Assembly (NCBI GenBank): GCA_039680175.1 | Contig: JBDKTO010000074.1 | Coordinates: 124,001 to 188,000, forward strand | Source of the DNA: Veillonellales bacterium | GTDB taxonomy: Bacteria > Bacillota > Negativicutes > JAAYSF01 | DNA length: 64,000 bases | Direction of reading: 5' to 3' | Shown here: one piece after another, positions 6,115 to 15,095 of the stretch | Layout of the letters: each line of letters opens with the position of its first letter | Numbering within the stretch: position 1 is the stretch's first letter | Notes under the pieces: generated by a model | What the model was told of the DNA's origin: nothing | Seen by the model: the letters and a program-made list of their open reading frames with translations, nothing else | The model's database searches: none | Made by a program: the position numbers and the translations under genes

Positions 6115-6257
6115 GTGGCTCCATATGGAGGTGCTATTGTTCAATTTGCGTCATAAAAATGCTGCAAATGGCAAGAAAGGAAATATTTCACAACATCCCT
6201 CATGTGAGGGATGTACAAAATAACTTTATTGGAATATTATTATAAGTAAAGCTATTT

Positions 6258-6585: not shown

Positions 6586-6736
6586 CCCGGCGGGATTTCC
6601 CTATGACCCCATCGTGACAGACAGCCGGAGGAGTTGAAGCCTTTTTTCCCGGCAATATGCGGGTTTATACCGGCAGCTTAAAAAAATCTGCCAGAAGGCC
6701 GGTGAACAATTTTAGAAAACGGAGGAGCGGTCGGTA

Positions 6737-7276
6737 ATGAGGCTAATGATAAATAAAAAAACAAAGCTTGGTTTCGTGGTTCTTGGCATGATTATTTGTT
6801 TAGCGGCTGCGGTTAGCGGCAGTCATTACAGCAGCCGGCCCGGCAAAGCGTTTACTTCCGAAAAAAGCGCTCTGATTTACCTGCAGTCTCAATGGGAAGC
6901 TTTAATCAAATCAACCGAGACAGCCTGGGATACGAGCTGGAATGCCTCTATCCGATCTAAGCCTTCCAATAAAGTAGTACGGCAGAAGCTGCAGCTGAGT
7001 TTGTCCGATTTGCGAAAAGCAGAAAAAGAATTGCGGCTCCTTTTTGAAAATCATTATTCCGAATTTTCTCCGGCTAAGCAAGCAGTATTAAAGCAGATTC
7101 TTGCCAATTCTTTAGCTGCCGTGCAGAAGAGAGAAGCGGCAATAGAAACAGTCCTAACGATTCAGGATGACAGCCGCTATCTTTTTGACATTATGAAGAA
7201 TATGCCGGATATCAGTTTGCAAGCCGATAATTATCTTAAAGCTGCGTCAGAACAATGGGAGCTGCTGGAAAACTGA
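6737..7276 (+). CDS. Unknown membrane-anchored or secreted protein under B12 control
   Basis: 179 residues, not recognised. A basic start is followed by one hydrophobic segment (about residues 11-29), a signal peptide or membrane anchor. The rest is mostly helical, with LSDLRKAEKELR-type charged repeats, and should lie outside the inner membrane. An upstream GGAGGAG site supports the start. It is the only gene between riboswitch 1 and riboswitch 2, so it should be made when corrinoid is scarce. A part in corrinoid capture is plausible but only from context. Confidence 0.75.
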   Translation: MRLMINKKTKLGFVVLGMIICLAAAVSGSHYSSRPGKAFTSEKSALIYLQSQWEALIKSTETAWDTSWNASIRSKPSNKVVRQKLQLSLSDLRKAEKELRLLFENHYSEFSPAKQAVLKQILANSLAAVQKREAAIETVLTIQDDSRYLFDIMKNMPDISLQADNYLKAASEQWELLEN

Positions 7277-7315: not shown

Positions 7316-7432
7316 TTTAGAAGAAAATAGATAAAAGTGTCGAAAAAAGCAGAAGGAAAATGGTCGACATTATTAACCAATTATGCTAAAATTAACTAAA
7401 CAAAGGAAATAAATGAAAAATAAATAGAATTT

Positions 7433-7632
7433 TGGTACAGGTGCCCGCAAGGGCCTAACAGAGAAGCCGGTGTAATTCCGGCACGGTCCCGCCACTGTAA
7501 GGGGGAGCAAAGCCATGATATGCCACTGGGAGCAAAGATTCCCGGGAAGGTTTGGCAAGAGCGATGATCCGGAGCCAGGAGAACTGCCTGTATGACAATC
7601 ACCGTTGACCTGCGAGCGATAGGGAGGGGGAT
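7433..7632 (+). promoter_or_regulatory. Cobalamin riboswitch 2 (first of three in series)
   Basis: Conserved blocks: ACAGGTGCCC, GAGAAGCCGGTG, CGGTCCCGCCACTGTAA, B12 box AGCCAGGAGAACTGCCTG at 7573-7590, then GACCTGCGAG...GGGAGG. A terminator follows at once and no gene comes before the next riboswitch. Confidence 0.95.
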
Positions 7633-7677
7633 TTCGATGCAGTTATTGCATTTTATCCGGCGGATTTACCGGATTAC

Positions 7678-7724
7678 AAGAAGCCTCTCTGGATTATCAT
7701 CACAGGGAGGTTTCTTTTGTTTTA
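7678..7724 (+). terminator. Riboswitch 2 terminator
   Basis: A 14-bp stem with two G-T pairs (7678-7691 with 7703-7716), an 11-nt loop, then TTGTTTTA. This is the likely expression platform of riboswitch 2. Confidence 0.8.
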
Positions 7725-7729
7725 TCCGC

Positions 7730-7785
7730 CAGGAAGCTGTCAGGCGGCCTAAGCCCGTGTAAGCTTGATGGCGGGCAGCTTCCTG
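7730..7785 (+). other. Perfect inverted repeat between riboswitches 2 and 3
   Basis: CAGGAAGCTG at 7730-7739 pairs perfectly with CAGCTTCCTG at 7776-7785. It could be an RNA helix insulating neighbouring riboswitches or an operator. A possible -35 (TTGAAA, 7787) follows, but no good -10 was found. Confidence 0.4.
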
Positions 7786-7825
7786 ATTGAAATAGCTGAT
7801 TTTACAAAATTTCATACGAAATCAG

Positions 7826-8060
7826 GTATCCGGCATCAGGCCGGATTTAAAAGGGAAGTCCGGTGTGATTCCGGCGCTGTCTCGCAACTGTGAAGGAGAG
7901 CCATGTTTCTGCCAGCCTCTTACCAAGGAGAAATGCGGCGATGCTCCCAAGTCAGGGTACTGCCTGGTTTCCAGTGTTTCATCCGGCGATACGCCATATT
8001 TCCGCCGGATGAGACACTCACATCCGTACAGCCTGCGATGGACAGGTCTGGGACTAAGAA
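7826..8060 (+). promoter_or_regulatory. Cobalamin riboswitch 3 (variant, second of three in series)
   Basis: Same core in divergent form: GGGAAGTCCGGTGTGATTCC, then GCTGTCTCGCAACTGTGAAG instead of the usual GGTCCCGCCACTGTAA, and a B12 box variant AGTCAGGGTACTGCCTGG at about 7951-7968, with a long peripheral hairpin after it. The GTGTGATTCCGGC / CAACTGTGA wording is typical of classical AdoCbl-type elements, so its ligand preference may differ from its neighbours. No gene lies between it and riboswitch 4. Confidence 0.88.
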
Positions 8061-8190
8061 CACTTGCAGGCAGAGGATAGCTTTGTGTTATAACATGGCT
8101 GCAGGTTTGTTAGGTGAAAAAATTCACCTAACAGCCAGAGTGGTTCTTGACCCGGCATTGGCAGCAGGCGGCTTTAGCAAAAAGGTAAAG

Positions 8191-8232
8191 CGTCGATTGT
8201 TCCGCCAGGACGGAATAGTCGGCGTTTTTTTT
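8191..8232 (+). terminator. Riboswitch 3 terminator
   Basis: A 14-bp stem with three G-T wobbles (8191-8204 with 8211-8224), 6-nt loop, then T8: a textbook intrinsic terminator. Confidence 0.9.
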
Positions 8233-8254
8233 ACTCGCGATTAACTGCATAGCG

Positions 8255-8455
8255 TTGGGATAGGTGCCCGAAAGGGCTTAATAGGGAAGCCGGTTGAAGG
8301 CCGGCGCGGTCCCGCCACTGTAACGGGGAGCGAATCCGCAAGGATGTGTCACTGAAGCGTACGCTTTGGGAAGGCGCGGGAGAGCGAAGAACCGGAGCCA
8401 GGAGAACTGCCTGTCTGACAATCACCGTTTGACCTGCGAGGTATGGGGAGGAGAT
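8255..8455 (+). promoter_or_regulatory. Cobalamin riboswitch 4 (third of three in series)
   Basis: Conserved blocks ATAGGTGCCC, GGGAAGCCGGTTG, CGGTCCCGCCACTGTAA and B12 box AGCCAGGAGAACTGCCTG at 8396-8413, ending GACCTGCGAGG..GGGGAGG. It lies closest to the operon that starts with the Skp-like gene at 8695. Confidence 0.95.
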
Positions 8456-8495
8456 TACGCGAAAATCAAGGACGGTTTCCGTCCGGACAGCGTAA

Positions 8496-8520
8496 GCACT
8501 CCCAACAAGGGAGCTTTTTT
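8496..8520 (+). terminator. Riboswitch 4 terminator
   Basis: Short hairpin (CTCCC 8499-8503 with GGGAG 8509-8513, extended by one pair across a bulge) followed by T6. Weak stem but good T-run, correctly placed for riboswitch 4. Confidence 0.7.
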
Positions 8521-8694
8521 AATATATCAGAAAGTAATAAGGATCTTTTCACCAAGTGCTATGAGCCATGAGCCGAAAAGACCGTGCTAGCAGTTTTTCT
8601 TATTCACTCGTTTTATTCCCGGTTTAGCGGCGTACAAGCCGTACTTGTCCATAAGAACGCAAATCAATAACTATGCTGAGAAAGAGGAAATGGA

Positions 8695-9120
8695 ATGAAA
8701 AAAATAACAGGAAGCTTTTCAGTACTGATCGCCGTATTTTTCCTATGGGGTATTCTGACCCCTGCGACGGCCCTGGCCGCCGCTGTCGGCTGTGTCGACC
8801 GGCAGCAGGTCTTCAGCAGCTACCCCGGCATCCAGGCTCTCATGCAGCAGATTCAGAGCCTGCGGGAAGCGGCGCAAAAGGACTACGACGACCGGGGCAA
8901 GGATCTGCCGGAGGCGGAGCGCAAAGCCCTGAACGACACCATCGCCCGGGAGGAAGCCCAGAAGGAAGACGAGCTGATGAACCCGGTGGGTGACAAAATC
9001 GAAGCGTCCATCAAGGCTGTGGCCGGGGAAAAGGGCTTGACCGTAATCATCGACGCAGGAATTGTGGTCTATGGCGGAGCCGGTATCACCGCCGATGTGA
9101 TCGCTAAAGTAAAGCAATAA
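8695..9120 (+). CDS. Skp/OmpH-like periplasmic chaperone
   Basis: 141 residues. Signal peptide over residues 1-29 (Lys start, hydrophobic core, cut near ALAAA). The mature part is the OmpH pattern: VDRQQVF..YP, a charged helical hairpin (about 45-105), and the end motif VVYGGAGITADVI. Expected role: holding outer-membrane proteins unfolded in the periplasm. It is the first gene after the three stacked cobalamin riboswitches and precedes the very large barrel fusion at 10773, which would need such help. It is a paralog of the protein at 4747, but with GC-richer codons. Confidence 0.9.
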   Translation: MKKITGSFSVLIAVFFLWGILTPATALAAAVGCVDRQQVFSSYPGIQALMQQIQSLREAAQKDYDDRGKDLPEAERKALNDTIAREEAQKEDELMNPVGDKIEASIKAVAGEKGLTVIIDAGIVVYGGAGITADVIAKVKQ

Positions 9121-9314: not shown

Positions 9315-10700
9315 ATGGCAAGCTCAACAGTAATCGCGACTTTTTACAATTTCGGAGAGACTTCTTTGGACAAAGGGCGGATACGCTTACTTACTTCTGA
9401 TAGTACTAGCAGCCCGGCATATACTCCGGCACCTGGCAGCGGTACGAGTATTGACAATACGGATCTTATTGCTTTTTATTTCAACGGTGGAAATAACTCA
9501 GGCTTACGAGTTCTGGTAGTGGAAAGAGAGTATGACAGCAGTTATAATCAGTTGCCTTGCTACATTTCCGTATACAATCCAAGCTCTTGGACTGCTACAG
9601 TAGCAAGAGATAACAACTATACTTATAGTGGTACCAGCCAAAAAATACTGAATGTGTATGGTATCCTGTCGCCGAGTGGCGGTACTTTTTACGGCACAGA
9701 CTATTCTACCGGCCGAGTTTTCAAGATGACGCACAGCATCAGCGGTTCTACCGAATCGTTGTCTCTTGCCAGCGATTACTATCCATTTGCGGCGACGGAA
9801 GCAGGCGCATCGGTTTATAGTGTAGCTCTCGCGCTGATTGACAGTTATCTTTATGCCATAGCCCAACAGTATACCAAGTCTGGCTCAGGGACTTCGCCGA
9901 GCGATTACACTTATTATGGCAGCATCATTGCCAAACTCAATCCAGCCAGCTTGGGTACGGCGGTTGCCACTACCGATGATGCGGCTCCGAACGCCTTTGA
10001 TATTCAGGTATATGACGGCAATCTTTATGTAACGGCACTGGGCGGTCCGCAGTGGTATGGCGATCCCGATGATCCGTCAACAATCAAATGGAATTACGAA
10101 TCGCGTATTCAAAAGGTCACGACAAGCCTTGTTGTTACCAATCTTGTCCGTCCGGCGGATGACACGGAAACCGGAAAAACCGATGATAAATTCGACATCC
10201 GCTCCCTGGCGATTCTTTCCGACGGAACGGCCTATATTTTGACCGGCTCCTATGACCAAAATTATTCGATGAACGGCCGTTTCTGGAAAACCACGATGGC
10301 AAAAATTAACGGGTTGAGCGATGGTTTGATAACAGATATTACAATTCCGGTTCCTAGACAAGTTGTACCGCCGATATCTTCGGCGTCTGGCTATTTGTGG
10401 GTAGCCTTGCCGGCGGATGATCTCAGCCGGGCTTGGGGGATGCTGGGTGATAATCTCGGGGTTTACGCAACGTCTCTTTCCGGCAGCACAATTGGTGCTG
10501 CTGCGGCCTCAGGTGGCGGATGGACCGCTGGTACTCCTTCCTTTAACGCTATTTCTCTGGCCGAGCCGGCTACAACATTTGCCAAAGAACTCACTGTGCG
10601 CACCTTGCGCGGCTACGTGCATCCGGTTATGGCCTCCGGCGAGGGTATTCCGACAGAAGAAAGAAAGAAATTTATTCAAGCTCATTTTGAAAAGAAATAA
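9315..10700 (+). CDS. Unknown propeller-like protein without signal peptide
   Basis: 461 residues from ATG 9315, chosen over an in-frame GTG at 9306 because GGGAGAGGTG is then well placed. Not recognised. It has no signal peptide or membrane segment. It is rich in Ser, Thr, Tyr and Gly, with repeated strand-like stretches such as GGTFYGTDYSTGRVFKM, SYLYAIAQQY, DGNLYVTALGG and DGTAYILTGSYD, the kind of pattern seen in beta-propellers. The C-terminus changes to a charged helical tail (TEERKKFIQAHFEKK). It lies between the Skp-like gene and the receptor fusion in the B12-controlled operon. Whether it stays in the cytoplasm or leaves by an unusual route is open. Confidence 0.8.
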   Translation: MASSTVIATFYNFGETSLDKGRIRLLTSDSTSSPAYTPAPGSGTSIDNTDLIAFYFNGGNNSGLRVLVVEREYDSSYNQLPCYISVYNPSSWTATVARDNNYTYSGTSQKILNVYGILSPSGGTFYGTDYSTGRVFKMTHSISGSTESLSLASDYYPFAATEAGASVYSVALALIDSYLYAIAQQYTKSGSGTSPSDYTYYGSIIAKLNPASLGTAVATTDDAAPNAFDIQVYDGNLYVTALGGPQWYGDPDDPSTIKWNYESRIQKVTTSLVVTNLVRPADDTETGKTDDKFDIRSLAILSDGTAYILTGSYDQNYSMNGRFWKTTMAKINGLSDGLITDITIPVPRQVVPPISSASGYLWVALPADDLSRAWGMLGDNLGVYATSLSGSTIGAAAASGGGWTAGTPSFNAISLAEPATTFAKELTVRTLRGYVHPVMASGEGIPTEERKKFIQAHFEKK

Positions 10701-10710
10701 TTGACAGAAC

Positions 10711-10747
10711 TTAGAAGAAGGGGCGGTAACTTCGCCCCTTCTTCTAA
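10711..10747 (+). other. Perfect 15-bp intergenic hairpin
   Basis: TTAGAAGAAGGGGCG (10711-10725) pairs perfectly with 10733-10747 across a 7-nt loop, without a T-run. It probably protects or punctuates mRNA between the 9315 gene and the fusion gene, or attenuates downstream expression. Confidence 0.6.
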
Positions 10748-10772
10748 AGTATGCATCTGGGAGGGTGCCTTT

Positions 10773-13700
10773 TTGCAAAGAAAAAAACAGCGTAAAAAAC
10801 CTATAGCGTGGAGCCTTAGAGCCTGTTCACTGGCGCTTTTGCTTACTACTTCGTATACATTGCCGCTGTATGCGTCTCAAACAGTTAATAATGAAAATGT
10901 TGATAGGACCATGGTCGGGAAAGCGGGGGATACCCACACCATATCCGGTACTGTGACAACCTATGCCACAGACACTCAGGATGGTGATTTAGATGCTGTG
11001 AATATGTATGCGGGCGAATATCAATCTGCCATAACCTTGCTCACCGGCAGTGTCTGGCGTCCGCTTGACGCGGCAGATTCAGCGGTTGTGAATGTTTATT
11101 CCTCCTTTCGAATGGAGTCGGGTTCCATGGTTGATCTGGCCTATAAATACAGCGCGGACAATGGCTATGTCGACAATATAGCGGCAGGATATACAACATG
11201 GCCAGTAGGGAGTACTGTGGGATCTGAGAAGGCTCCTTACCGTCAAATGAATATCACAAACGGCAAGTTTGGCGATGATCTTACCTTCCGCATCAATCTG
11301 GGCACACACCTTTCCACGCTTAACCCAGCAGGGACAAAATATGTTTACCGGGGTGGCTGTAGCGATTCCGTTACCCTGAAGAATCCAAGCCATATTGACG
11401 GTGTAACAACTTCGAATATTAAACTGGAATATGTACTGAATAAAAATTTTGCGGCAGGCTACAATTCAAATTTCTCCTGGTCAACTGTCGCCGATACAAC
11501 GCTTAAAGGCGAAGTTGCCAATGTTTTTGGTATTACGAATGCTACCAAGAATCAAAGCCTAATGGACTCATTCCAAGTTACCGGGGAGGCAACCAATCAA
11601 GTTGACGGCGCTCTCAATAAGTATGATATTTCTACGGAACTGGTACAAACAACCAGTACTGCTAAAAGTAAATATTACAGTGTTACTTGGACAGCGCAAA
11701 AATCAAACTCTCTTTCCCAGGGAGCTTACTCTACCGCCAATGCAGCCCTTGCGACCCGCAATTTATGGCGGATTGAGGACGGCCTGTTCTGGAAGCGCGG
11801 CGACGACCGGCGGTTTGCCAACCGCGGCATTGCCAAGGACGATTTCAGTGACCGGGAAGGCGTGTGGACCAATACCTGGCGGGGAAAATACACTTATGAC
11901 GGCGTGCAGAACTCCAGCTTTGGCCAGATGTACAGCGGCATCCAGGTCGGCTATGACAAGCTGCGGGACCGGGAACTGCTGGGCGGCAAGGTCTATACCG
12001 GACTGTTTTTCAGCAAAATGACCGCCGATGCTGATTTCAACGCCCAGAATACCGGCGGCGCTGCCTACAACAGCGGCAAAGGCGATCTGGACAGCACCGG
12101 CCTCGGCGCTTATATGCTCTGGGAAGGCAAAAAAGGACACTATCTGGATGCCATGGTGCGCTGGAGCAAAATCGACAATGGCTATACGTATACCGATTCC
12201 TTCGGCGACAGCTACCGGAAGGATTTTGACGCCAAAACCTACGGCATCGGCGCCCGTTACGGTTTGCGCATTGATAAAGGCAACGGCTGGTTTATGGAAC
12301 CGCAGGTCGGCCTTTCCTACGGCATAATGCGCTCCTTTAATTTCCGTATGGACAACAGTTTAAAGTATTCCCAGGACCAGATGGACATGCTGATCGGCCG
12401 CGCCGGACTGTCCGTCGGCAAGAGCTACGGGCAGGGCGATCACACTGGCGAAGCGTATCTCAAGCTGACCGCCAATCATGACTTCATGGACGGCGGCAAC
12501 GCCATGATGTACGCCATGCAGAACAGTACAAATCCAAGCCTGAATGACGTCGTTCTGGCCTCGCAAAAGGTGGACACCCTGGCCGGCAAGGACACCTGGT
12601 ATGACGTGACGCTGGGCAGCAATTTCAAGCTGGGCGACAGCCGGGACGGCTGGCTGGAAGCCAATAAATCTTTCAGCGGCAAGGTCAACACCGACTGGCA
12701 GATTAACGGCGGTGTCGCCTGGCATTGGGGCGGTCCATCCAAAGTCAAAAAGGCGGCAGCGGTGAATACGGCTGTGCAGAGTCCGCTTGCGGACACCGCG
12801 AAGGAAGGCGCTGCCGTTGACAAAGGTGCAACCCCCAATTTGCCTGAGGGCAATGGTTCAGCGCCGCAGACGAATGCAGCCAACGGTGATAATGGCAATA
12901 TGAACATTGCCGGCGCGGCTGAACCCATATCGCCCGGCGGCACCAATGCCACCGGGACAGCCGGTACGCTGCCGCCGGGCAGTACGGGTGAGTTTACGTT
13001 CGCTCCGGTAGTGGTCGAAGCCGCCCGGCCGGACTGGGAGAAAAAACTCTCGCCGGGAACGGTCTCCGTCATTGAGGTGCCGAAATACGCCGGCGAGCAT
13101 AAGACATTGGCCGATCTGCTGCAAACGGTGCCCGGCGTTTATATCGACCGGATCTCCGGCGGCGGCACCGGCCATTATTCGACGGTGCGGGTGCGCGGCT
13201 CCTCGGCCAGCGAGGTCAATATCTACATGGACGGCGTTTTAGTGAATACCGGCAGCGAGCAGGCGGTCAACCTGGAAAACCTCAATATCGACAATGTGGA
13301 GCGCATCGAAGTCTATCGCGGCTATATCCCGGCCCGGTTTGCCGGGGCGGCCATGGGCGGTGCGATCAACATCGTGACGAAAAAACCGGATAAAACCGGC
13401 GGCAAGGTCAGCTGCGGCCTGCGGTCCTTCGGCGGCCAGAAATACAATTTGGAGACGACCGCTCCGGCCGGCGACGGCAGCCTGCTGCTGGCGGTTAACC
13501 GTGACCAGGCCAAAGGAGATTTTAAATATAATAAAATTGTGGATACGTATGATGTCATAAAATGGGGAATTGTAAATGGAAAGCAAGTTCCAGTAGAAAC
13601 CTATCCGCTGACACGCTGGCGCCAGAACAACGGCTATGAGGATAACAACATCCTGGCCAAATGGCAGGATAAAAACTGGTTTGTGAAGCTGAACTATATC

Positions 13701-15095
13701 AATAATAAGACCCATACGCCGGGCAGCGTGAACGGCTACCTGATCGATGTGCCGGACAGTATGCTGCCGCCAGAGATCACAACTGCTAGTAAAGCGTTGC
13801 GTGCCGGCACGATTGATACGGAGAAAACCGAGCTGTCCTTCGGCCGCCGCCAGCAAAGCGGCAATGTGGAATGGGGTTGGAAGCTGGATGCCATTCACCA
13901 GAATAAAGACGCGTTATATTTGCGGTACGATAACGGCAACAGGGACATTGCCTTTGGAACCAATACCTTCCGCAACAATACCTATAACGCATCCGTTGAC
14001 GGCACCTGGAAGATGGGGGAAAGCCACCTGCTGGAATTCCTGGCCACCGCCAGCAAGGAAACCATGAAGGTGCGCTTTACCGCCGACGATGCCTGGAGCA
14101 CGAACTGGGGCAAGAAATTTGAGCAGTATTTCCTGCCGAAATACAATATGAGCAATTACTACCTCCAGCTCCAGGATACGATGAAACTGGACGATGCCGG
14201 CAGTCTGACCTTTACGCCCCTGGTGCGGGCCCAAAAATCCGATATCGGCATTGACGTGAAAGAAGGCGAAGGCTGGCTGTACAGCTATAACCTGGGCCTG
14301 AAGAAAAAGTGGAATGATCAATGGACCACCTGGGCCACCTATGGTACTTATAACAAACTGCCGAGTTGGTATGAACTGTTTGGCGATGGTGTCAATCTTG
14401 TGTCAAAATGGCATGAATATAACAGCATCGCTGAATGGAGTCCGGAAACGTCTGCGGAGCATGGGAAAAATTGGGATGTATCCGTTAACCGGACCGGAAA
14501 GATGTTCGGATCGGACAGCGATACCACCCTGACGTATTTCCACCGCAACTCGGAAAATCTGATGACGACTATGTTTAACCCCCTATACGGGGCAACCTGG
14601 TATGCGAATTACGGTGCCGGAAAGATTCAGGGGGTCGAGCTTAGCAGCAAAATGCATTGGGAAAAATTTGACTTTACGCTAAGCACGACATGGCAGGATT
14701 CTCTTACTACGAAAGGATATACCGCTTATGCGAATATGAGCATGACCAGCTGGCAGGGGCAGCCCTTCCCCTGGACGCCGGAGTGGACGGTCAACGCTCG
14801 TCTGGATTACCGTTTCCCCGGCAATAAGTTCAGCGTCTTCGGTGAATACAACTGGACGGATGAGCTAAGCTGGTACAATGGTTCGGGTTCAAGGTACTAC
14901 TATGAAGCCATGGGGCTCTTCAATATCGGTATGAAGTATTCATTCAATAAGCAGTATAAACTGATTGCCGGTGTGAATGACATCGCCAACAAGGGGCCGA
15001 AACAATGTGTTGTTTACAGTGACAGCAATAGAAAAAATGTTGCCTATCCGCAGCAGGGCCGTACCTATTATATGACGGTGGAATATACATTCTGA
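10773..15095 (+). CDS. Two-barrel fusion: autotransporter plus TonB-dependent receptor
   Basis: 1440 residues from TTG 10773; GGGAGGGTG lies 6 nt upstream, and starting further up would put a hairpin inside the gene. Order: signal peptide (about 1-37, KKQRKK then a hydrophobic core); passenger (about 38-330); a complete autotransporter barrel (about 335-655, ending GGVAWHWGG); a 90-residue Ala/Gly/Pro/Asn linker; a TonB-box-like stretch (FAPVVVEA, about 745); a plug domain with VRVRGSSASEVNIYMDG and MGGAINIVTKKP; and a roughly 550-residue receptor barrel ending in an aromatic strand (YYMTVEYTF). The frame is continuous. An autotransporter barrel ends in the periplasm, so the linker and TonB box would be correctly placed. 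Cobalamin riboswitch control suggests corrinoid or cobalt capture. I know of no standard family with this architecture. Confidence 0.9.
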   Translation: MQRKKQRKKPIAWSLRACSLALLLTTSYTLPLYASQTVNNENVDRTMVGKAGDTHTISGTVTTYATDTQDGDLDAVNMYAGEYQSAITLLTGSVWRPLDAADSAVVNVYSSFRMESGSMVDLAYKYSADNGYVDNIAAGYTTWPVGSTVGSEKAPYRQMNITNGKFGDDLTFRINLGTHLSTLNPAGTKYVYRGGCSDSVTLKNPSHIDGVTTSNIKLEYVLNKNFAAGYNSNFSWSTVADTTLKGEVANVFGITNATKNQSLMDSFQVTGEATNQVDGALNKYDISTELVQTTSTAKSKYYSVTWTAQKSNSLSQGAYSTANAALATRNLWRIEDGLFWKRGDDRRFANRGIAKDDFSDREGVWTNTWRGKYTYDGVQNSSFGQMYSGIQVGYDKLRDRELLGGKVYTGLFFSKMTADADFNAQNTGGAAYNSGKGDLDSTGLGAYMLWEGKKGHYLDAMVRWSKIDNGYTYTDSFGDSYRKDFDAKTYGIGARYGLRIDKGNGWFMEPQVGLSYGIMRSFNFRMDNSLKYSQDQMDMLIGRAGLSVGKSYGQGDHTGEAYLKLTANHDFMDGGNAMMYAMQNSTNPSLNDVVLASQKVDTLAGKDTWYDVTLGSNFKLGDSRDGWLEANKSFSGKVNTDWQINGGVAWHWGGPSKVKKAAAVNTAVQSPLADTAKEGAAVDKGATPNLPEGNGSAPQTNAANGDNGNMNIAGAAEPISPGGTNATGTAGTLPPGSTGEFTFAPVVVEAARPDWEKKLSPGTVSVIEVPKYAGEHKTLADLLQTVPGVYIDRISGGGTGHYSTVRVRGSSASEVNIYMDGVLVNTGSEQAVNLENLNIDNVERIEVYRGYIPARFAGAAMGGAINIVTKKPDKTGGKVSCGLRSFGGQKYNLETTAPAGDGSLLLAVNRDQAKGDFKYNKIVDTYDVIKWGIVNGKQVPVETYPLTRWRQNNGYEDNNILAKWQDKNWFVKLNYINNKTHTPGSVNGYLIDVPDSMLPPEITTASKALRAGTIDTEKTELSFGRRQQSGNVEWGWKLDAIHQNKDALYLRYDNGNRDIAFGTNTFRNNTYNASVDGTWKMGESHLLEFLATASKETMKVRFTADDAWSTNWGKKFEQYFLPKYNMSNYYLQLQDTMKLDDAGSLTFTPLVRAQKSDIGIDVKEGEGWLYSYNLGLKKKWNDQWTTWATYGTYNKLPSWYELFGDGVNLVSKWHEYNSIAEWSPETSAEHGKNWDVSVNRTGKMFGSDSDTTLTYFHRNSENLMTTMFNPLYGATWYANYGAGKIQGVELSSKMHWEKFDFTLSTTWQDSLTTKGYTAYANMSMTSWQGQPFPWTPEWTVNARLDYRFPGNKFSVFGEYNWTDELSWYNGSGSRYYYEAMGLFNIGMKYSFNKQYKLIAGVNDIANKGPKQCVVYSDSNRKNVAYPQQGRTYYMTVEYTF

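Follow-up and report, generated by a model that had tools for sequence, protein, structure and literature searches.

A fixed series of three cobalamin-class riboswitches before an outer-membrane operon of Negativicutes, with a predicted ON unit between two units of OFF design

An outer-membrane operon of a Veillonellales bacterium is preceded by three complete cobalamin-class riboswitches, which we call units 2, 3 and 4. The explanation we favour, with a probability of roughly 0.55, is that one promoter feeds three corrinoid attenuators in a fixed order, where unit 3 would be an ON switch placed between the OFF switches of units 2 and 4. Computation shows the three units with their order and conservation, the single promoter, three conserved and mutually exclusive helices in unit 3 and the different wiring of the canonical units; from these we infer which sign and which ligand unit 3 has, and the logic of the gate. 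The broader proposal, that this is an opposite-sign serial gate made from one riboswitch class, with a three-layer (anti-antiterminator) platform conserved across several Negativicutes families, we consider evenly balanced.

Organisation and relatives of the array

The window, that is the whole stretch of 64,000 nucleotides that was analysed, contains six cobalamin riboswitches on its plus strand according to cmscan, three of them within 7422–8428. All features given here by window position lie on this strand. The three matches to RF00174 are found at 7422–7605 (unit 2, 120.7 bits), 7807–7981 (unit 3, 71.1 bits) and 8245–8428 (unit 4, 110.7 bits), and all exceed the gathering score of 31.5 bits, which was the cut-off for every unit. 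Units 2 and 4 are canonical, full-length matches (model positions 1–189) with a B12 box. Unit 3 also covers model positions 1–189, at more than twice the gathering score.

Each unit has its own intrinsic terminator. The expression platform of unit 2 (7622–7718) includes the L13/antiterminator strand GGGAGG (7622–7627) and a terminator read from the sequence, with the stem 7684–7691/7703–7710 and a U-run at 7711–7718. In unit 4 the platform (8445–8520) includes GGGGAGG (8445–8451), the terminator stem 8499–8503/8509–8513 and a U-run at 8515–8520. The terminator of unit 3 (8187–8232) has an 18-pair stem, 8187–8204/8211–8228, with a U-run at 8225–8232. The first-pass annotation, made from the letters of the DNA, had described three riboswitch-terminator units with no gene between them and had put the terminators at 7678, 8191 and 8496; this layout holds, and the positions are correct to about 10 nt. 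From 7422 to 8695 the ORF list offers no convincing gene. The sole ORF there, 7903–8244, crosses aptamer and platform, and since it runs through the aptamer a coding role for the tail of unit 3 was rejected. As in serial riboswitches, aptamer and platform are repeated before one operon, with neither a promoter nor a convincing gene in between.

In the 13 canonical units of the arrays described below, the L13 strand GGGGAG(G) is complementary to L5, and in the nascent RNA its partner is the terminator's 5' arm, with a probability of 0.76–1.00 (antiterminator probability 0.79 in unit 2 and 1.00 in unit 4). In these models the canonical units are of the OFF design and have the published repressing wiring, that of the Priestia megaterium metE riboswitch (PMC10653944), in which the L13/P13 strand is set against the terminator arm. 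Ligand would lock the L5-L13 kissing loop of units 2 and 4 and withdraw GGGGAG from the antiterminator, the terminator would form and the units would be OFF.

A DNA similarity search found the stretch behind unit 3 in seven further genomes of Negativicutes, which belong to several families and include Anaerospora hongkongensis (G308), a species whose strain DSM 15969 has the array. Aptamer and platform of about 210 nt occur in nine copies in eight genomes, including a second copy in this genome; the sample behind the comparisons of unit 3 is eight distinct sequences, all of one class, with G011 and G028 forming one lineage. A covariance model of the stretch behind unit 3 recovered these nine copies and no other convincing one, and no further copy was found by a class-wide DNA search or by a pattern search of 380 Negativicutes genomes. 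Weak covariance-model matches in G079, G094 and contig C16 of A. hongkongensis were set aside, the cobalamin aptamer being absent there, and the last of them is by sequence an ordinary terminator hairpin. A 37-nt piece of the tail also matches an hsdM gene of contig C61; this is coding sequence, and the match was taken as chance.

All nine copies of the tail lie directly 3' of a low-scoring cobalamin aptamer, and a canonical aptamer comes next in eight arrays. In the seven other genomes unit 3 is upstream of an orthologue of unit 4, which is present in all eight arrays, and before the same outer-membrane operon. In a tree of the aptamers the nine variants fall into one clade (support 100/100). 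A second clade holds unit 2 and its orthologues at the head of the arrays of G034 and G308, and a third, poorly supported at the base, holds the units after the variant. With C for canonical and V for variant, the orders found are C2-V-C4, V-C4 and, in G011 and G028, V-C4-C4. In G006, G032 and G036 related operons come with one or two canonical units but without the variant. We read the array as an inherited set of three different units whose order is fixed, and not as a fresh duplication.

The second copy in this genome, at C74:113347–113521, is its only other low-scoring aptamer. It shares with unit 3 the aptamer and the whole stretch of about 210 nt to the terminator, and its variant is followed by an autotransporter-TonB receptor gene without an intervening canonical unit.

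The variant unit and its platform

The core of unit 3 is divergent, as the first-pass annotation had claimed. L5 is GUCUCG (7879–7884), with UCUCG in place of the usual consensus UCCCG (PMC10653944). The B12 box reads AGTCAGRGTACTGCCTG against the canonical AGCCAGGAGAACTGCCTG, with J6/3 one nucleotide shorter (AGTCAGGGTACTGCCTG at 7950–7966, a pattern present at nine loci). The variant string AGTCAGRGTACTGCCTG occurs at exactly these nine loci and no others in 380 Negativicutes genomes, so that no copy has the altered pocket without the long platform, or the reverse. The score far above the cut-off and the conservation in eight relatives (56–75 bits) mark unit 3 as a specialised variant, not a decayed copy. 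In this class of riboswitch J6/3 lies towards the corrinoid's upper ligand, and another corrinoid is therefore possible as the ligand of unit 3. The earlier suggestion that the unit prefers another cobalamin form is plausible, given a perfectly conserved pocket variant of its own. The conserved change in J6/3 offers a ready test of the determinants of upper-ligand or corrinoid choice.

L5 of unit 3 is complementary to L13, UGGGAC, at 8049–8054. Across the copies, GUCUCG and L13 UGGGAY form 6/6 pairs in seven of nine and 5/6 in the other two, with G-U counted, and a kissing loop between them that includes G-U pairs is predicted from sequence complementarity. At 7974–8017, between P1 and P13, unit 3 of the window has an inserted 15-bp hairpin that is nearly perfect (GTGTTTCATCCGGCG/CGCCGGATGAGACAC); most of this stretch is absent from other genomes.

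The platform of unit 3 is about twice as long as those of its neighbours. P13 (8031–8036/8066–8071) encloses L13, and the pairing GCCUGC/GCAGGC was preferred to a short CCUG/CAGG hairpin for this reason. The competing domain (8031–8169) consists of P_A (8046–8060/8144–8155) and P_T1 (8031–8036/8164–8169). The antiterminator hairpin (8152–8209) pairs 8152–8176 with 8186–8209; an antiterminator formed from GCUUU/AAAGC alone was replaced by this full hairpin, which was found when P13 was locked.

Folding of unit 3 was predicted in the order of synthesis, as nascent RNA, for the nine copies. Just after transcription P13 has a probability of 0.99–1.00 in eight of them and is weak in A. hongkongensis (0.10). 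Before the terminator arm is made, and without ligand, P13 is at 0.00 in all nine copies. Its 5' strand then pairs with 8164–8169 (P_T1) at 0.78–1.00 in every copy, and L13 pairs with 8144–8155 (P_A) at a probability of at least 0.82 in seven copies, 0.63 in G308 and 0.01 in G162. P_A and P_T1 hold the strand 8152–8169, which is the antiterminator strand. With P13/L13 locked, which mimics the kissing loop, the outer helix of the antiterminator became more probable in seven of nine copies; in G034, for example, its probability went from 0.00 to 0.68, and in this genome's second copy from 0.33 to 0.98. The single lineage of G011 and G028 showed no rise under the lock. At equilibrium the full-length RNA has the terminator fold in both states, which means that switching of unit 3 must be kinetic.

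All nine copies share one topology of the antiterminator hairpin (z −0.7 to −3.6), with 96.6% of cells paired against 37–54% when it is slid, and one C-G pair changed to A-U on both sides. In the terminator 97.2% of cells are paired and three pairs are changed on both sides. Over 18 columns each, minor alleles number 23 in the terminator 3' arm and eight in the arm shared with the antiterminator, as expected for an arm with two partners. Compensatory changes were looked for in P_A and P_T1 and none was found, these helices being conserved and invariant.

Unit 3 does not have the wiring of the P. megaterium metE switch, since the partner of its L13 is 8144–8155 and not the terminator arm. In the models the only conserved alternative in unit 3 is the antiterminator, which can form only when other partners occupy L13 and the P13 strand. 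The arrangement has one alternating layer more than that of the canonical units, so that the sign of unit 3 should be reversed, and we predict an ON switch that responds to a corrinoid. Unit 3 must also have an ON state because seven arrays have a promoter upstream and the terminator has 18 pairs, and the operon would otherwise be silent; the argument leaves room for another trigger or leaky termination. Without ligand, the L13 strand GGGAYUAAGAAC would pair with the downstream GUUCUUGACCC and the P13 5' strand GCCUGC with the downstream GCAGGC, the strand CCGGC...GCAGGCNGCUUU would be hidden and the long terminator would end transcription. Once ligand is bound, L13 would stay with P13 and the kissing loop, the freed strand would capture the 5' arm of the terminator, and the conserved antiterminator would form and allow read-through into unit 4. 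Unit 3 had first been taken for a further checkpoint that acts in the same direction as its neighbours and makes repression tighter; we do not favour this, as the structural layer that it has beyond every canonical unit of these arrays predicts activation by ligand.

All three units could nonetheless be OFF for the same corrinoids, giving pseudo-cooperative and sharper repression, with the platform of unit 3 merely longer. B12 uptake genes are as a rule repressed by B12, and every canonical unit examined here has the OFF design. Tandems of the same class are usually read as pseudo-cooperative, and 26 AdoCbl doublets have been reported (PMC9481103). We think this explanation unlikely: the unbound fold with P_A and P_T1, which prevails until the terminator is synthesised, hides the antiterminator strand, so that the unbound state would already terminate, no conserved helix was found by which ligand would close the antiterminator of unit 3, and unit 3 belongs to a separate clade and is not a copy of its neighbours.

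Unit 3 might also be a corrinoid-controlled source of a noncoding RNA of about 430 nt that ends at 8232 and acts in trans, like Rli55 or EutX. Its tail is long, stable, conserved and noncoding (z −5.35), ends in a strong terminator and matches no Rfam family even at permissive E-values. A role in trans is nevertheless improbable, because unit 3 is always found in cis, before the same operon and behind the promoter of that operon, and the second copy in this genome directly precedes the autotransporter-TonB receptor gene. The competing cis helices account for the conserved pieces of the tail. Conservation beyond that of an ordinary platform, as a sign of function in trans, was ruled out, at 74% against 75% in the canonical units over aligned positions.

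The length of the tail, and within it a strongly conserved block of about 50 nt with invariant, partly unpaired positions, could suggest a second aptamer, so that a corrinoid and another ligand would share one terminator. This is distinctly improbable, as the block can be aligned to the P13/L13 region of canonical units (ACCUGCGA...GGGGA) and is explained by P13, L13 and helix P_A, and the searches gave no tail that lacked the variant aptamer.

Promoters and the logic of the series

The array is headed by a promoter at 7364–7392, TCGACA-17-TAAAAT with an extended TG, which matches at 10 of 12 positions and was equalled in none of 100 shuffles. Head promoters with TTGACA or TCGACA and a spacer of 17–18 nt are found before the first unit in seven of the eight arrays; in G011, G028, G160 and G162 their score is equalled by 9–15 of 100 shuffles, with a perfect −35 box. 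A clear promoter is absent from the array of G041, whose variant copy is degenerate (56 bits). The spacers between the units of the arrays have promoter scores at the level of shuffled sequence, and the gap from the U-run of unit 3 to the start of the unit 4 aptamer is 12 nt, the closest spacing of these two units among the arrays. Strong promoters after each terminator, which would make the units independent, did not appear in the promoter scoring. The passage of one transcript through three units, proposed in the first-pass annotation, agrees with these results, and that the units act in series, as three attenuators behind one promoter, is well supported. Independent units, each with its own promoter, are hardly credible: a weak promoter-like site lies within the array (7673–7700, 9/12) and the spacers of G160 and G162 score 9.0, but spacer scores are those of chance whereas the heads carry TTGACA-type promoters, and units 3 and 4 nearly adjoin.

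If the units act in series with unit 3 as an activator, the promoter would drive a leader of canonical unit 2, variant unit 3 and canonical unit 4, followed by the outer-membrane uptake operon, which would be expressed only with unit 3 occupied and units 2 and 4 empty. One ligand bound with different affinities would give a window of corrinoid concentration (present, not replete). A preference of the altered J6/3 of unit 3 for another corrinoid would give 'corrinoid X present AND AdoCbl low'. Either logic makes sense for an outer-membrane uptake operon, in that the receptor would be built if a supply is present and the cell is not replete. The gate would be a band-pass or 'B AND NOT A' gate instead of the 'very tight' one first suggested. 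If unit 3 activates, the array would be a natural ON/OFF series within one class, an RNA-only band-pass or feed-forward control of B12 uptake, and the sign of a riboswitch would be invertible in evolution by insertion of one more competing helix.

Only one activating corrinoid riboswitch is known, the cobT riboswitch of Alkalihalobacillus halodurans, which responds to cobinamide (Procknow et al. 2023, PMC10653944). Unit 3 resembles it in its cobalamin-class aptamer, in the L5-L13 kissing loop that would stabilise P13 once ligand binds and in a predicted antitermination by ligand, activation being a prediction in the case of unit 3. In the cobT switch P13 itself excludes the terminator, whereas in unit 3 P13 would free a separate antiterminator strand, one layer more. 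The cobT switch stands alone before cobT, and unit 3 stands in series with units of repressing design before an outer-membrane operon.

AdoCbl tandems, and triplets of other classes, likewise consist of complete units with terminators before one operon (PMC9481103). That survey reports AdoCbl doublets and no AdoCbl triplets; the array described here is a triplet, as is V-C4-C4 in G011 and G028, and consists of three distinct orthologous units, including one variant, whose order is fixed. The TPP/HMP-PP tandem of the same survey is a NOT A AND B gate, in which the product acts as OFF and a related compound as ON. This is the logic proposed here, but in that tandem the ligands are sensed by unrelated RNA classes, while here both sensors would be of the cobalamin class.

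The operon and its surroundings

The first gene of the operon (8695–9120) encodes an OmpH/Skp-like protein (PF03938). It is followed by a gene for a protein of about 461 residues (9315–10700), which has no Pfam family and of which copies at least 52% identical lie behind the array in five other genomes, and by a gene at 10701–15095 for an autotransporter beta-domain fused to a TonB-dependent receptor (PF03797, PF07715, PF00593). The same order of an OmpH-like protein, a protein of about 460 residues and an autotransporter-TonB receptor fusion of about 1450 residues is found behind the arrays, in a comparison in which the contig of G160 ends early and the second gene of G028 and G034 is a more distant relative.

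The fusion protein has two outer-membrane barrels in one chain of about 1450 residues, PF03797 and then a complete TonB-dependent receptor with plug and barrel, as assigned by Pfam on the window copy (10701–15095). In six other genomes an ORF of 1428–1468 residues is found at the corresponding position after the array, and a further autotransporter-TonB receptor ORF is present at C74:113971–119514 (L018:13971–19514). In A. hongkongensis the operon protein of about 460 residues lies in two frames (G308:C2:162992–164381), which is either a broken gene or a sequencing error.

This 4.1-Mb genome has 15 cobalamin aptamers, 14 of them on contig C74, to which the window belongs. These 14 riboswitches form a corrinoid island of about 140 kb at C74:64926–203880, all on one strand. 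An operator-like palindrome, CCTCANNTGAGGG followed by TTGGAATATT, precedes both paralogous copies of riboswitch 1 and the second variant unit (window 6160–6240, C74:112170–112320 and C74:113200–113270). A gene for a LuxR/GerE-type regulator (C74:112668–113204) adjoins palindrome sites. Window positions 6637–6705 match the interior of this regulator gene at 90% and are a remnant of it, followed by an unrelated ORF of 179 residues (6737–7276) with no Pfam family.
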